Position numbers and translations under genes: made by a program. Of a stretch of DNA of 57,301 bases, positions 32,959 to 37,637 are shown piece after piece. Location: assembly GCA_036273715.1 (NCBI GenBank), contig DASUHB010000052.1, positions 1 through 57,301 on the forward strand. The letters run 5' to 3'. Within the stretch, counting starts at the first letter, position 1; every line of letters starts with the position of its first letter. The notes under the pieces are model-generated. The model searched no databases and had not been told where the DNA came from. It saw only the letters and a list, made by a program, of their open reading frames with translations. The stretch comes from Gemmatimonadaceae bacterium. Its GTDB lineage: Bacteria > Gemmatimonadota > Gemmatimonadetes > Gemmatimonadales > Gemmatimonadaceae.

Positions 32959-33339
32959 ATGATCGTGACGAAACGGATCTACGAGCCGGTGGGCGAGCGT
33001 GACGGTTATCGGGTGCTGATCGATCGCCTATGGCCGCGCGGTGTGAGTAAGACCGCGGCACATCTGGACGAGTGGGCGAAGGCTATCGCGCCGTCGAACG
33101 AGCTTCGGCACTGGTACGACCACGATCCTGCGAAGTGGGAGGAATTTCAGCGTCGCTATCGGCAGGAGCTCGACAACGCAGAGGCGCAGGCTGTGCTCGA
33201 TGCGCTGGCGAAGCGGGCGCGGCGAGGTCGCGTCACGCTGCTCTACGGTGCGAAAAGCGGCGAGATCAGCAACGCGGAGGCGCTCGCCCACATCCTCGAG
33301 CATGTCGGCAGCCACACCAACGCGGCGGTCCAGCGTTAG
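32959..33339 (+). CDS. DUF488 family protein
   Basis: A 126-residue DUF488 protein of unknown biochemical role. Family features are clear: IVTKRIYEPVGERDGYRVLIDRLWPRGVSK, the WAKAIAPSNELRHWYDHDPAKWEEFQRRY segment and LLYGAKSGEISNAEALAH near the end. A ribosome-binding site GGAGAA lies seven bases before the ATG. The stop is inside the window-wide 7-mer (CGTTAGGC). Confidence 0.9.
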   Translation: MIVTKRIYEPVGERDGYRVLIDRLWPRGVSKTAAHLDEWAKAIAPSNELRHWYDHDPAKWEEFQRRYRQELDNAEAQAVLDALAKRARRGRVTLLYGAKSGEISNAEALAHILEHVGSHTNAAVQR

Positions 33340-33588
33340 GCTGCGCCGCCACACATCCCTCCATCCCGCGGCGAGCACACCAAGCGCCAAGCGTATTGCG
33401 ATTCCTGGTTGTTGTAGCACGGCATGTGCCATCGGAGCGGACAACCGTCGAAATCAGTGGGTCGGCCTCCAAGTCTCAACCACGGCGTCGGCGACTCGCG
33501 ACGTTCGGTAACGTGCCTGACTGAGATCAGCAGCGAGGCGCGAACTTTACTGATGACGGTCAGGTCAGGTTCCGGCTGCTGAAGCTCC
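33340..33588. other. Spacer between DUF488 and esterase pseudogene
   Basis: No gene, repeat or clear promoter is recognisable in these 249 bases. Base composition is mixed, with somewhat lower GC than the neighbours. Confidence 0.5.
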
Positions 33589-34590
33589 ATGACGACTCGC
33601 GCCACCGGCTCGCTCGCTCGGCTCATACTCGATGCCGCGCATCCGCTCACGGGCGCGGAAGTCGACTTCGAGCCAATCCTGTCCCTCGTCGGCGGCGCTC
33701 GCGTGGTCCTCATTGGCGAAGCGTCGCACGGGACGCACAAGTTCTACCGCACTCGCGCCGAGATCACGAAGCGCCTCATTCGCGACCGTGGCTTTGCCGC
33801 CGTCGCGGCCGAGGCCGACTGGCCCGACGCCTATCGCGTGAATCGCTACGTGCGCGGCACCGGCGGCGATGTCGACGCGACCGAGGCCCTGAGGGGCTTC
33901 GAGCGTTTCCCGCAGTGGATGTGGCGGAACGCCGATGTGCTCGACTTCATCGGCTGGCTTCGCGGTTCAACGACGAGCAACCGGATGAGGCGAGACGCGT
34001 CGGCTTTTACGGACTCGACCTGTACAGTCTGCATGCATCGATGGCCGCGGTGCTGGACTACCTGCGCGTCGTCGATCCCGAGGCGGCCCGGCGCGCGCGG
34101 TACCGCTACGCGTGCTTCGACCAGTTCGGCGAGGACCCGCAAGCCTACGGCTACGCGGCGACCTACGGCCTAACGCAATCGTGCGAGAACGCGGTGGTGG
34201 CCCAGCTCGTCGACCTCCGCCGCTCGGCGGCCGACTACGCGCGCCACGACGGAGGTGTGTCGCCGGATAGTCTCTTTTTCACGGAGCAGAACGCCCGTGT
34301 AGTGCGGAACGCCGAGCGGTATTATCGCGCGATGTTCGGCAGCCGGGTCTCATCGTGGAATCTGCGCGACCAACACATGAGTGACACGCTGAACGAGCTG
34401 GCGTCGTTCCTGGGCCGGTCGGGCGGTCGGTCGAAGGTGGTGGTTTGGGCGCACAACTCACATGTCGGCGATGCGCGCGCGACGGAGCTCGGTTCGGGCG
34501 GCGAGCTCAACGTGGGCCAGTTAGTCGGCCAACACTTTGGGGCCGAGGCCGTCGTTCTCGGATTCACGACACACCATGCCCGAGACCTTC
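33589..34590 (+). pseudogene. Erythromycin-esterase family protein, frameshifted and truncated
   Basis: The N-terminal part reads [29 protein letters not shown] and [18 protein letters not shown], the hallmark of erythromycin-esterase-like hydrolases (catalytic His/Glu region). At about 33964 one base has been lost in CTTCGC-GGTTCAACG. Shifting by one restores [45 protein letters not shown] and VVVWAHNSHVGDARATE. The gene then stops matching after VVLGFTT, so the last ~60 residues are missing. Two separate lesions indicate a dead gene. The shifted frame runs on by chance into the next gene. Confidence 0.85.
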
Positions 34591-34775
34591 CCGACGTCGC
34601 TCTGAGCCGCCGCGAACGGGTCGCGATACGCTCGACACGCCTCGTGTCGCGTGAAGGAAATCACGGGGAATTTGCGCAACGTGGGGAGAGCGCGGTGCCG
34701 CGGCGTGCCGCTCCCGGGGCAATGGGGCCTCGAGACCGGCTGTCGCGCTGCACACGCGACCCGAGGAGACCTTCC

Positions 34776-35126
34776 ATGCACCGCACAACCGGCAGCACCC
34801 ACGCAGCACGCCTCGGTCGGTTCGCGTCGTTGTCCGTTCTGCTGTTGGCAGCAACGACGGCGTCGACGGGGCAGCACGAACACATGCTCAAAATCATGAA
34901 CAGCGGCGAGCACACGATCATCGAGGCGCACATCAGCGGCGTCGACCGCGACACGTGGGGGCCGGATCTGCTCGGCGACGACGCGACGATTACGCCGGGG
35001 GAGACGGAACAATTCACGATCCGGGAAGGCTGCGCCGAGGACATCAAGCTGATTTTCAAGCACTCGATCGTGCGGGTCTCGCGCAACTTCGACACCTGCA
35101 CGTACGATCTCCGGTCGTCGTACTGA
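34776..35126 (+). CDS. Secreted small protein of unknown function
   Basis: A 116-residue protein with a Sec signal peptide (residues 1-33, LGRFASLSVLLLAATTASTG) and an ~80-residue beta-rich domain: LKIMNSGEHTIIEAHISGVD, WGPDLLGDDATITPGETEQF and two Cys (EGCAED and FDTCTYD) that could form a disulfide. I recall similar short secreted proteins with the N-S...I pattern and W..DLLG motif in several phyla, with no known function. GAGGAG sits eight bases before the ATG. It is in frame with the broken esterase upstream but has its own start. Confidence 0.7.
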   Translation: MHRTTGSTHAARLGRFASLSVLLLAATTASTGQHEHMLKIMNSGEHTIIEAHISGVDRDTWGPDLLGDDATITPGETEQFTIREGCAEDIKLIFKHSIVRVSRNFDTCTYDLRSSY

Positions 35127-35187
35127 TGCGCGGGCTGCCTAACGGCGCGGCGAACGGCAGACCGACCGGCGCGCGTGGCGCGGCGTT

Positions 35188-35249
35188 GCATGCCCGGGGC
35201 GGGAATCGAACCCGCACTCCCCGCTAGGGGAAAGGGATTTTAAGTCCCT
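35188..35249 (-). repeat. Left attachment repeat (partial tRNA-Leu 3' end)
   Basis: The 62 bases are identical to 37389-37450 and cover the discriminator base, acceptor 3' strand, T arm, variable arm and half of the anticodon arm. It cannot fold as a tRNA. The following bases (35250 on) differ from the real tRNA at once. Confidence 0.9.
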
Positions 35250-35311
35250 TTGTCTATCTCTAGCTATTTTAGCCATCCCGCAGCCAGTTTCACCGGGATC
35301 GTTCGCGTAAA

Positions 35312-35328
35312 GTAACTAAAAGTGTTAC
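35312..35328. promoter_or_regulatory. Possible AbiEi operator
   Basis: GTAAC, seven bases, GTTAC: a short inverted repeat ten bases upstream of the abiEi start codon. AbiEi antitoxins repress their own operon by binding inverted repeats near the promoter. Confidence 0.35.
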
Positions 35329-35337
35329 CTTAGGAGA

Positions 35338-36141
35338 ATGAAACCGGCAGCAGCCAAGCCCAACGCTCGTGATTTTCTAGACCGCCTGTCAGCCAGCAGC
35401 CGGTACAGCTTTAGCACGTCAGAAGCTCTTCAAGCACTCGGTATCTCTCCGCCTGCTTTGAAGGTAGCGCTGGGCCGCCTCGCCCGTCAAAAACGCGTCG
35501 TTTCGCCAGCGCGGGGCTTCTACCTCATCCTTCCGCCTGAGTATCGATCCCTGGGGTGCCTGCCCGCGGATCAATTCATTCCTGACCTGATGAGGCGTCT
35601 CAAGCTCCCTTACTACGCGGGGCTTCTGACGGCGGCGCAATTCCACGGCGCCGCGCACCAGCGTCCGATGGAGTTTCAGGTGTTCGTCAAAAAACCGAGG
35701 CGGCGGATCGCCTGCGGCAGCGTGCGGGTCAAGTTCATTGTTAGGAAAGAAATCGCCGGTGTGCCCGTGCAGAAACTCAACACGCCGCGCGGTTCCGTCG
35801 CGGTTTCGACGCCCGAAGCGACGGCGATCGATCTCATTGGCTATCAGCGCCAGGCCGGCGGCCTCAGTCAGGTAGCGACGGTGCTGGCAGAACTCGCAGA
35901 ACGGATCGACTCAAAGAAGCTCCCGCTGGCCGCAGCGACGGCTCCCGTCCCCTGGCTTCAACGTCTTGGCTATGTGCTCGATCAGGTCGGTGCTGCGGAC
36001 AAGACGGAGAACTTAAAGAAACTCGTGCGCGCGCGCGCGCATGAGCCGGTTCCTCTCTTGCCTGGCGCACCGTACAGCAAAGCATCGAGAAACGTCGACT
36101 GGAAGGTCTACGTCAACGCACGGGCGGAGGTCGATCTGTGA
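35338..36141 (+). CDS. abiEi: AbiEi-family antitoxin (type IV TA)
   Basis: A 267-residue antitoxin and autorepressor. The N-terminal winged helix (about residues 20-70; SFSTSEALQALGISPPALKVALGRLARQKRVV and GFYLILPPEY) is typical, followed by the AbiEi C-terminal domain with YYAGLLTAAQFHGAAHQRPMEFQVFV and the late STPEATAIDLIGYQRQAGG. It counteracts AbiEii at the activity level rather than by a stable complex. Its stop overlaps the toxin start (ATGA-type, four bases). It lies inside the tRNA-Leu island. Confidence 0.9.
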   Translation: MKPAAAKPNARDFLDRLSASSRYSFSTSEALQALGISPPALKVALGRLARQKRVVSPARGFYLILPPEYRSLGCLPADQFIPDLMRRLKLPYYAGLLTAAQFHGAAHQRPMEFQVFVKKPRRRIACGSVRVKFIVRKEIAGVPVQKLNTPRGSVAVSTPEATAIDLIGYQRQAGGLSQVATVLAELAERIDSKKLPLAAATAPVPWLQRLGYVLDQVGAADKTENLKKLVRARAHEPVPLLPGAPYSKASRNVDWKVYVNARAEVDL

Positions 36142-36965
36142 TCCCGCGCGACTTCATCCTTGAATGGCGCGAACACGCGCCATGGCCGCAGGATTTTCAG
36201 GTCGAGCAGGACCTCATCATCAGTCGAGCCCTGGTCGAGATTTTCTCGAATCCTCTGTTGCACGATGCTCTCGCGTTCCGTGGCGGAACCGCCCTGTACA
36301 AGCTTCACCTGAAACCGGCAGCGCGATATTCAGAGGACATCGATCTCGTTCAGACCCGGCGCGAGGCGGCTGGACCGATGATGGATGCCCTGCGCGATGT
36401 GCTCAATCCGTGGCTGGGTAAACCGCAATGGAAGCAGACGGACGGACGCATCACGTTCGTCTACAGAATAAACTCCGAGGATGCCCCGCCAATTCCGCTG
36501 CGACTGAAAGTCGAAACGAACACGCGTGAGCATTTTTCCGTATTCGGTCTGGAGGAAATTCCCTTCGCGGTGAATTCACGCTGGTATGAAGGCGCCTGCA
36601 GCATTCACACGTACGAACTCGACGAATTGCTCGGCACGAAGATGCGGGCGCACTATCAACGGAAACAGGGGCGCGATCTTTTCGACTTGGCAGTCGCGCT
36701 AAAACATTCTGCGGTGGATCCACGCCGCATCGTCGCCGCCTTCTCTGAATACCTGCGGCAGCAAGACAAGAGTGTTACCCGCGCGCAATTTCAAGAGAAT
36801 CTCTTCCTGAAGCTTCGTGATCCCGAGTTTCACGCGGATATCGGACCATTGCTCGCTCTTCAAGAAAGTCCTTGGGACACCGCCGGAGAGGCCGCTATCG
36901 TTTCTTCGCGTCTCATCGAGCTGTTGCCCGGCGAGCCGTGGAAAGGCGAGGCCGTCAACCAGTAA
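36138..36965 (+). CDS. abiEii: AbiEii-family nucleotidyltransferase toxin
   Basis: The 275-residue toxin has the DNA polymerase beta-like nucleotidyltransferase core: the GS-type motif LAFRGGTALYKLHL, then ARYSEDIDLVQTR with the paired Asp that bind metal. A further helical segment contains ELDELLGTKMRAHYQRKQGRDLFDLAVAL. AbiEii-type enzymes use NTPs, in some cases to modify tRNA, and arrest growth, for example during phage attack. The antitoxin is encoded just upstream with a four-base overlap. No inactivating change is visible. Confidence 0.92.
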   Translation: MIPRDFILEWREHAPWPQDFQVEQDLIISRALVEIFSNPLLHDALAFRGGTALYKLHLKPAARYSEDIDLVQTRREAAGPMMDALRDVLNPWLGKPQWKQTDGRITFVYRINSEDAPPIPLRLKVETNTREHFSVFGLEEIPFAVNSRWYEGACSIHTYELDELLGTKMRAHYQRKQGRDLFDLAVALKHSAVDPRRIVAAFSEYLRQQDKSVTRAQFQENLFLKLRDPEFHADIGPLLALQESPWDTAGEAAIVSSRLIELLPGEPWKGEAVNQ

Positions 36966-37001
36966 GAATGGCAACCCAGATCCCGACCAATCGCCTTGCT
37001 G

Positions 37002-37319
37002 TCAGCAGAAATTCGATCGCAAGCAAGGGGCTTGGATCCGCACGGGACAGACCAACAGCAGCCGCTTGTTGGCCCTGCTGAGTGCAACGTAAAGGAGGCA
37101 CGTTGCATCTCGCTTGTCGGGAAACGTCATGGCGTCGCAGGGCATGACAATAACGCTGTCGTACTCCAACCACTTCGCCTCGTGAATATTGCGTATCGCC
37201 TTCGCTGGTGGCCTGGGCCTCGCATGGGCGCGGCGTGTGTGATTTGTGCTAGACTCTCGTCGGCAGTAACAAAGTCGTCGAGCCGGATCGCATGTTGAAA
37301 CTCCTTTCTCGCGATCAGC
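37002..37319 (-). pseudogene. Helicase C-terminal fragment, frameshifted
   Basis: On the minus strand, near 37199-37002, the frame reads NIHEAKWLEYDSVIVMPCDA, DKRDATCLLYVALSRANKRLLLV: the motif V-VI end of a UvrD/Rep-type helicase (LYVALSRA is the conserved piece). It ends at a TGA at 37002. Further right (37319-37230), in another frame, ARKEFQHAIRLDDFVTADE looks like the preceding part, so at least one frameshift separates them. Everything upstream is missing. Perhaps it is the remnant of a defence or mobile-element helicase in the island. Confidence 0.7.
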
Positions 37320-37391
37320 CTCTTTGGAGCGGCTCAGATCCTAAGGCCCCCGGCCTTGCCGGCGATAATTACTTCGCCTAACGTGGAAGCA

Positions 37392-37476
37392 TGCCCGGGG
37401 CGGGAATCGAACCCGCACTCCCCGCTAGGGGAAAGGGATTTTAAGTCCCTCGCGTCTGCCGTTTCGCCACCCGGGC
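37392..37476 (-). tRNA. tRNA-Leu (TAA)
   Basis: The 85-nt minus-strand gene folds as a class II tRNA: acceptor stem GCCCGGG with CCCGGGC, anticodon arm AGGGA-CTTAAAA-TCCCT (anticodon TAA) and a long variable arm (CCCC TAGC GGGG). CCA is not encoded. The 3' end is the insertion site of the AbiE island. This tRNA reads TTA, the rare codon supplied again and again by the window-wide GTTAGGC motif. Confidence 0.95.
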
Positions 37477-37564
37477 CAAGGGCTCGCTCGAGCACCCTGG
37501 AACAACACAGGGACACCGGCTGGGCGCCGCATGTCCCTGTGATCAAGTCGCACGAATCGTGGAG

Positions 37565-37637
37565 AGCGGGAAACGGGACTCGAACCCGCGACCCCAACCT
37601 TGGCAAGGTTGTGCTCTACCAACTGAGCTATTCCCGC
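37565..37637 (-). tRNA. tRNA-Gly (GCC)
   Basis: A 73-nt cloverleaf: acceptor GCGGGAA with TTCCCGC, anticodon loop CTTGCCAAG (anticodon GCC), and T arm with GGTTCGAGTCC. It lies 88 bp from tRNA-Leu on the same strand; CCA is not encoded. Confidence 0.95.

Follow-up and report, generated by a model that had tools for sequence, protein, structure and literature searches.

An AbiE toxin-antitoxin pair retained in a probable decayed, CIME-like integrative element at tRNA-Leu(UAA) of a Gemmatimonadaceae bacterium

The 2.14-kb island at positions 35250-37388 of the window (the whole 57,301-nucleotide stretch that was analysed, contig C52 of a 4.34-Mb draft genome in 81 contigs) is very probably a decayed, CIME-like integrative element seated at the 3' end of the single tRNA-Leu(UAA) gene, from which the integrase and the greater part of a Gabija helicase are gone and in which AbiE persists. 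The island is a clear but fairly ordinary mobile-element remnant; its type is already known, and it adds one more case. It shows an outcome of tRNA-island decay in which a toxin-antitoxin pair stays intact while the neighbouring Gabija helicase is degraded. The features are listed in Table 1. The initial annotation placed the island at 35188-37450; the limits are corrected here, as those figures include both flanking repeats.

Table 1. Features of the island and its target tRNA gene, in window coordinates.
Feature	Position	Strand	Evidence
Distal attachment core, displaced native tRNA-Leu(UAA) 3' part, 62 bp	35188-35249	-	100% identity to 37389-37450; native chromosome joined on left; left flank of G005 continues into tRNA-Leu
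Element-borne arm beside distal core, weakly tRNA-like, no tRNA	35250-35291		No ARAGORN call; Rfam score below gathering threshold and mostly from core; homology to G112 abiE block begins only at 35292
Palindrome TAAAGTAAC-N7-GTTACCTTA, probable AbiEi operator/promoter	35308-35332		Similar palindromes upstream of abiEi in relatives
abiEi, predicted antitoxin/autorepressor, 267 aa, N-terminal AbiEi_4 and C-terminal AbiEi_1	35338-36141	+	PF09407 2.4e-49, PF13338 1.3e-5; PADLOC AbiEi 1.2e-92; dN/dS 0.13-0.17 vs G112
abiEii, predicted toxin, DUF1814 nucleotidyltransferase, 275 aa, GTG start	36138-36965	+	PF08843 4.5e-37; PADLOC AbiEii 3.4e-108; dN/dS 0.10-0.16 vs G112
Remnant of Gabija GajB (UvrD-like) helicase C-terminus, frameshifted pseudogene	37005-37303	-	tblastn with intact G011 homologue; intact homologues are GajB beside GajA
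About 85 bp of unassigned DNA at the place of the integrase gene in relatives	37304-37388		No integrase similarity; tyrosine integrase ORF of G026 ends 5 bp before tRNA-side repeat
tRNA-proximal attachment core inside intact tRNA	37389-37450	-	62-bp repeat identity
Intact tRNA-Leu(UAA), integration target	37392-37476	-	ARAGORN; Rfam RF00005 59.2 bits; synteny with tRNA-Gly in relatives

The two flanking copies of the tRNA-Leu(TAA) 3' part are identical at 62/62 positions, as first annotated, and stand 2201 bp apart from start to start. No third copy of this core occurs in the whole draft genome, and identity together with uniqueness excludes a chance origin of the repeat. The right copy spans the tRNA from position 27, in the anticodon stem (5' strand), and extends 3 nt beyond its 3' end. 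When the genome is searched with a pattern for the 3' part of tRNA-Leu(UAA), the two repeat copies are the only matches, so the target is apparently the sole tRNA-Leu(UAA) gene. Att sites in direct repeat flank the island, one of them within an intact tRNA, the arrangement by which a decayed tRNA-integrated element is recognised. The 5' part of this tRNA is taken to be native and its 3' part to derive from the element. A tRNA-Gly gene called by ARAGORN (37564-37637, minus strand) is adjacent. The GC content of the island, 58.3% against 67%, is the minimum along the contig. That the distal core might form part of another functional tRNA was considered and rejected, given the lack of an ARAGORN call and poor acceptor pairing.

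Five genomes of the same genus (G001-G005) each hold a single copy of the tRNA-Leu(UAA) core, and AbiEii was found in none of them. G005 presents the empty site: its left flank, 75% identical over 34791-35247, passes without a break into tRNA-Leu, followed by tRNA-Gly and then the right flank. In G001, which has one tRNA copy, both flanks are collinear with the window except for a difference at 33300-35190. G002 and G003 also have one copy, with other DNA to the left of the tRNA in G002. The single copy of G004 lies on a contig that is not collinear with the window, for which reason this genome was rejected as an empty site and retained for copy number only. In that genome the stretch from tRNA-Leu to tRNA-Gly (L038 6789-7036) is 97.6% identical to the window and adjoins a tRNA-Ala, and it reflects a rearrangement, a duplication, or a misassembly. 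The window segment unmatched in G001, 33300-35190, holds an erythromycin-esterase-like gene (33589-34760, PF05139) that is apparently broken across two frames near 33975, whether as a pseudogene or through faulty assembly.

Across the family, the 3'-part pattern finds matches in 40 of 179 genomes, and three of these carry two-copy cores: the window genome (2.2 kb between copies), G075 (2.7 kb), and G026 (43 kb). The repeat starts at the same tRNA nucleotide, in the anticodon stem, in all three. The G026 element has a tyrosine integrase at its tRNA-side end (Table 1), relatives of which adjoin tRNA-Leu(UAA) in G133 and G173 and mostly other tRNAs elsewhere. In G016 (JABAQJ010000003.1, Gemmatimonadaceae), a related abiE pair (AbiEii 71%) and a decayed 3' fragment of tRNA-Leu are separated by about 190 bp, and, seen from the conserved left flank, the two come in the same order as in the window. 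The larger G016 element reaches the contig end and encodes an OLD/GajA-like ATPase, a NikA/MobC-type protein, and an HsdR-like protein. tRNA-Leu(UAA) is thus documented as an integration hotspot in Gemmatimonadaceae; a limited search of the literature on genomic islands and toxin-antitoxin systems in Gemmatimonadota found nothing related. Comparison of relatives at this locus, which the initial annotation had proposed, yields both an empty site (G005) and a larger element with the same core boundary (G026). The G075 island (L108 6913-9707) contains two ORFs of unknown function, one weak HNH match, and no detected integrase; a stretch picked out by eye as an integrase remnant (L108:9203-9622) was dropped, having no Pfam, PHROG, or profile match.

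These comparisons bear on whether the 3' half of the tRNA might have been duplicated locally, with slippage or ectopic recombination capturing 2.2 kb and no site-specific integration taking place. The sequence inside the distal core is weakly tRNA-like, which speaks for such an origin. The low GC, the empty site, the core boundary shared by three genomes, and the integrases at the same tRNA nevertheless make this explanation, which had been named beforehand as one that would refute the island, barely credible.

Within the island, neither an integrase nor a scrap of one was found by tblastn or by a profile of 13 family integrases run at maximum sensitivity, in agreement with the initial annotation. 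No mobility gene was recognised at all; beyond abiEi and abiEii, the helicase remnant is the one other gene recognised. Elsewhere in the genome, PF00589 matches comprise XerC and XerD (named from sequence) and five others. Three of these five adjoin tRNA-Thr(cgt), tRNA-Ser(gga), and tRNA-Gln(ttg), and for the remaining two the surrounding stretches that were read hold no tRNA. The exact core is absent from viral contigs; a looser pattern matches four, each with complete tRNA-Leu genes.

The initial annotation also offered the idea that the island is a passenger, taken here as a minimal non-autonomous element mobilised in trans by a tRNA-Leu(UAA)-specific integrase such as that of an incoming G026-type element. 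Both cores are still identical, as excision requires, and suitable integrases are present in the family (G026, G133, and G173). Other small islands are also known, one at the same tRNA with no detected integrase (G075) and one with AbiE at tRNA-Val of Chlorobium ferrooxidans. The window genome itself, however, lends no positive support, having no third core and no non-Xer integrase seen at tRNA-Leu. The lack of recognised mobility genes and of the exact core in viral contigs likewise counts against mobilisation in trans, and a streamlined mobile unit would not be expected to hold a helicase scrap in decay. On balance a passenger is unlikely, though not a negligible prospect, and a decayed element remains the preferred reading.

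The helicase scrap of the initial annotation proves to be real and can be named. Positions 37047-37303 (minus strand) correspond to residues 410-495 of an intact 506-aa GajB-type helicase, with one frameshift: in tblastn with the G011 query, residues 431-495 align at 37247-37047 with 70% identity, and residues 410 onwards lie in another frame from 37303. In G010 and G011 another large gene precedes the intact homologue, and the one in G011 matches GajA. The island thus resembles the Gabija system (GajA-GajB) in holding the C-terminus of a GajB-type helicase, and differs from it in that this is a frameshifted fragment only and GajA is missing, so that neither gene is intact there. The scrap was also considered as a partner of the G016 ATPase and set aside, as the orientation differs. 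On plasmid p2 of Pararhizobium gei (L242), GajB-like helicase pieces adjoin genes for an ATP-binding protein, an AbiEii-type toxin, and an anti-phage dCTP deaminase, which makes Gabija-like and AbiE-like genes neighbours elsewhere too.

The abiEi-abiEii pair, recognised in the initial annotation and borne out by both Pfam and PADLOC, forms one operon with a 4-nt overlap. AbiEii keeps G49, R63, D67, and D69, K168/R175 of motif III, and R179-D180-x-x-D183 of motif IV, as matched by eye to published motifs (PMC3985639); these correspond to the residues on which toxicity depends in mutagenesis of the Streptococcus agalactiae AbiEii (PMC3985639). Over both genes, dN/dS is 0.10-0.17 between the window and G112, a two-lineage comparison that does not measure constraint since insertion. 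Judged from its coding sequence, the pair is intact and selectively constrained. The palindrome upstream begins 30 nt before abiEi, 58 bp inward of the distal core. Since similar palindromes recur upstream of abiEi in several relatives (G112, G016, L158, L160, L162, L163, L169, and L174), it is probably the AbiEi operator/promoter. Streptococcal AbiEi binds palindromes within its promoter (PMC11062541, PMC3985639).

The abiE block (35292-36980) is 85% identical in nucleotides to one in G112 (L112 6699-8387), where the 11.7-kb contig bears neither a tRNA nor a T-arm fragment. In this one genome the same genes do occur without the att repeat, which goes part of the way towards a finding that the initial annotation would have counted against the island. 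The G112 copy shows that the pair can also travel on its own; the att structure in the window stands unaffected. Other AbiEi-like and Fic-like genes, judged by eye, lie close to the G112 block.

The proposed course of events begins with a tyrosine recombinase of the ancestral element, whose crossover would have lain within the anticodon stem-loop (core AGGGACTTAAAATCCCT...). The element's copy of the tRNA 3' part would have restored a working tRNA and displaced the native 3' part to the far end. A later deletion at the tRNA-proximal end may then have removed the integrase and most of the Gabija-type helicase gene, the order of deletions being conjectural, and the abiE pair would have survived it. 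If a tyrosine recombinase specific for tRNA-Leu(UAA) inserted the element and such a deletion came later, everything observed directly would be explained: the duplication, the empty site, the common core boundaries, the absence of an integrase, the constraint on abiE, and the decay of the helicase. The proposal of the initial annotation that this is a reduced integrative element keeping its defence or stabilisation module draws its support from the G005 empty site, the integrase-bearing family elements at the same tRNA with a shared core boundary, and helicase decay beside abiE constraint. We infer the deletion rather than see it directly, the genomes compared at this locus being of the same genus or family and not of the same species. 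Two counterpoints should be kept in mind. The abiE pair could have entered an island already reduced, since the G112 block lies away from any tRNA, and no surviving integrase scrap points to the inserting enzyme, which is putatively a tyrosine recombinase.

By analogy with known AbiE systems, AbiEi is predicted to repress its own promoter and to neutralise the toxin, and AbiEii to be a GTP-binding nucleotidyltransferase that would arrest growth once the antitoxin drops. AbiE might thereby provide abortive phage defence and impose a penalty on losing the carrier DNA. AbiE has a stabilising effect on plasmids (PMC3985639) and plays a part in the stability of ICEs (PMC11062541), which may be why the pair was retained. 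The pair resembles type IV AbiE systems (COG5340-DUF1814) in its bicistronic, overlapping genes, two-domain antitoxin, DUF1814 motifs I-IV, and palindromic predicted operator (PMC3985639). It differs in that its activity is predicted and in that a search by sequence gave no credible PDB relative of AbiEi or AbiEii, hence no relative of solved structure.

A CIME, or cis-mobilizable element, is a decayed ICE or IME that has lost its integration and transfer genes and kept attL and attR (PMC5704250). The window island likewise has both att sites and no integration or transfer genes. It departs from a CIME in that its ancestor may have been an ICE, an IME, or a prophage, only one intact gene pair is left, and no tandem partner for CIME-type accretion was found beside it. 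Clues to the ancestor come from the NikA/MobC-type protein of the G016 element and from the neighbour of the G026 integrase, which matches phrog_3657; the 43-kb G026 element may be a prophage. ICESsuHN105 and the ICESa2603 family also carry AbiE on an integrative element, where it is linked to element stability, although there the ICE is complete and here a 2.2-kb remnant is left (PMC11062541). The tRNA-borne defence islands of E. coli similarly place defence genes, AbiEii included, at tRNA hotspots, some with unclear mobility, yet many that lack a recognisable mobile-element type still carry integrase or recombinase genes (PMC10121019).

The wider AbiEii subfamily was sampled at 80 loci with related AbiEii genes, T-arm fragments being counted outside intact tRNAs. 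In the 103 kb that lie no more than 700 bp from the pair there are seven fragments, and in the remaining 820 kb of these loci nine (Poisson P = 0.0002, or 0.001 without the L210 match, which was judged coding sequence), figures in which the 700-bp limit and the pattern were set after some cases had been seen, contig ends cut the flanks, one of the seven is G016, and one gene family is counted. An excess over expectation of tRNA-type att fragments close to this subfamily, seen across phyla, is accordingly a lead, not a result. It suggests a testable idea, that AbiE is a retention device at island edges.

A rival reading would make the window island minimal by design, AbiE plus att being a recurrent addiction-stabilised unit in which the AbiEi operator, so near the core, helps to block excision. 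The fragment enrichment and the effect of AbiEi on ICE excision in Streptococcus suis (PMC11062541) fit such a unit. However, in several of the enriched loci the att fragment lies at the abiEii end and not at the operator, most of the 80 loci have neither a tRNA nor a fragment, and S. suis AbiEi bound neither attL nor attR (PMC11062541). A design of this kind is highly improbable for the window island, for which decay of a larger element is preferred. For the subfamily as a whole, it is doubtful that AbiE pairs repeatedly form or anchor tiny integrase-free tRNA islands in unrelated phyla (at tRNA-Leu here and tRNA-Val in C. ferrooxidans) that are addiction-stabilised, move only when a same-site integrase enters, and have excision affected by AbiEi near the core.

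The C. ferrooxidans DSM 13031 island (L205 7023-11118), one of two clear cases of att repeats around AbiE, is an independent parallel to that of the window: a perfect 42-bp tRNA-Val(GAC) repeat surrounds 4.05 kb with abiEi-abiEii, a Fic-domain protein, and no evident integrase. In the second clear case, on a deltaproteobacterial contig (L192, JANXPS010000177.1, 63-5450), a 61-bp repeat with a tRNA 3' end, neither copy of which is a complete tRNA, surrounds 5.3 kb with abiE and, by eye, a VapC-like ORF.
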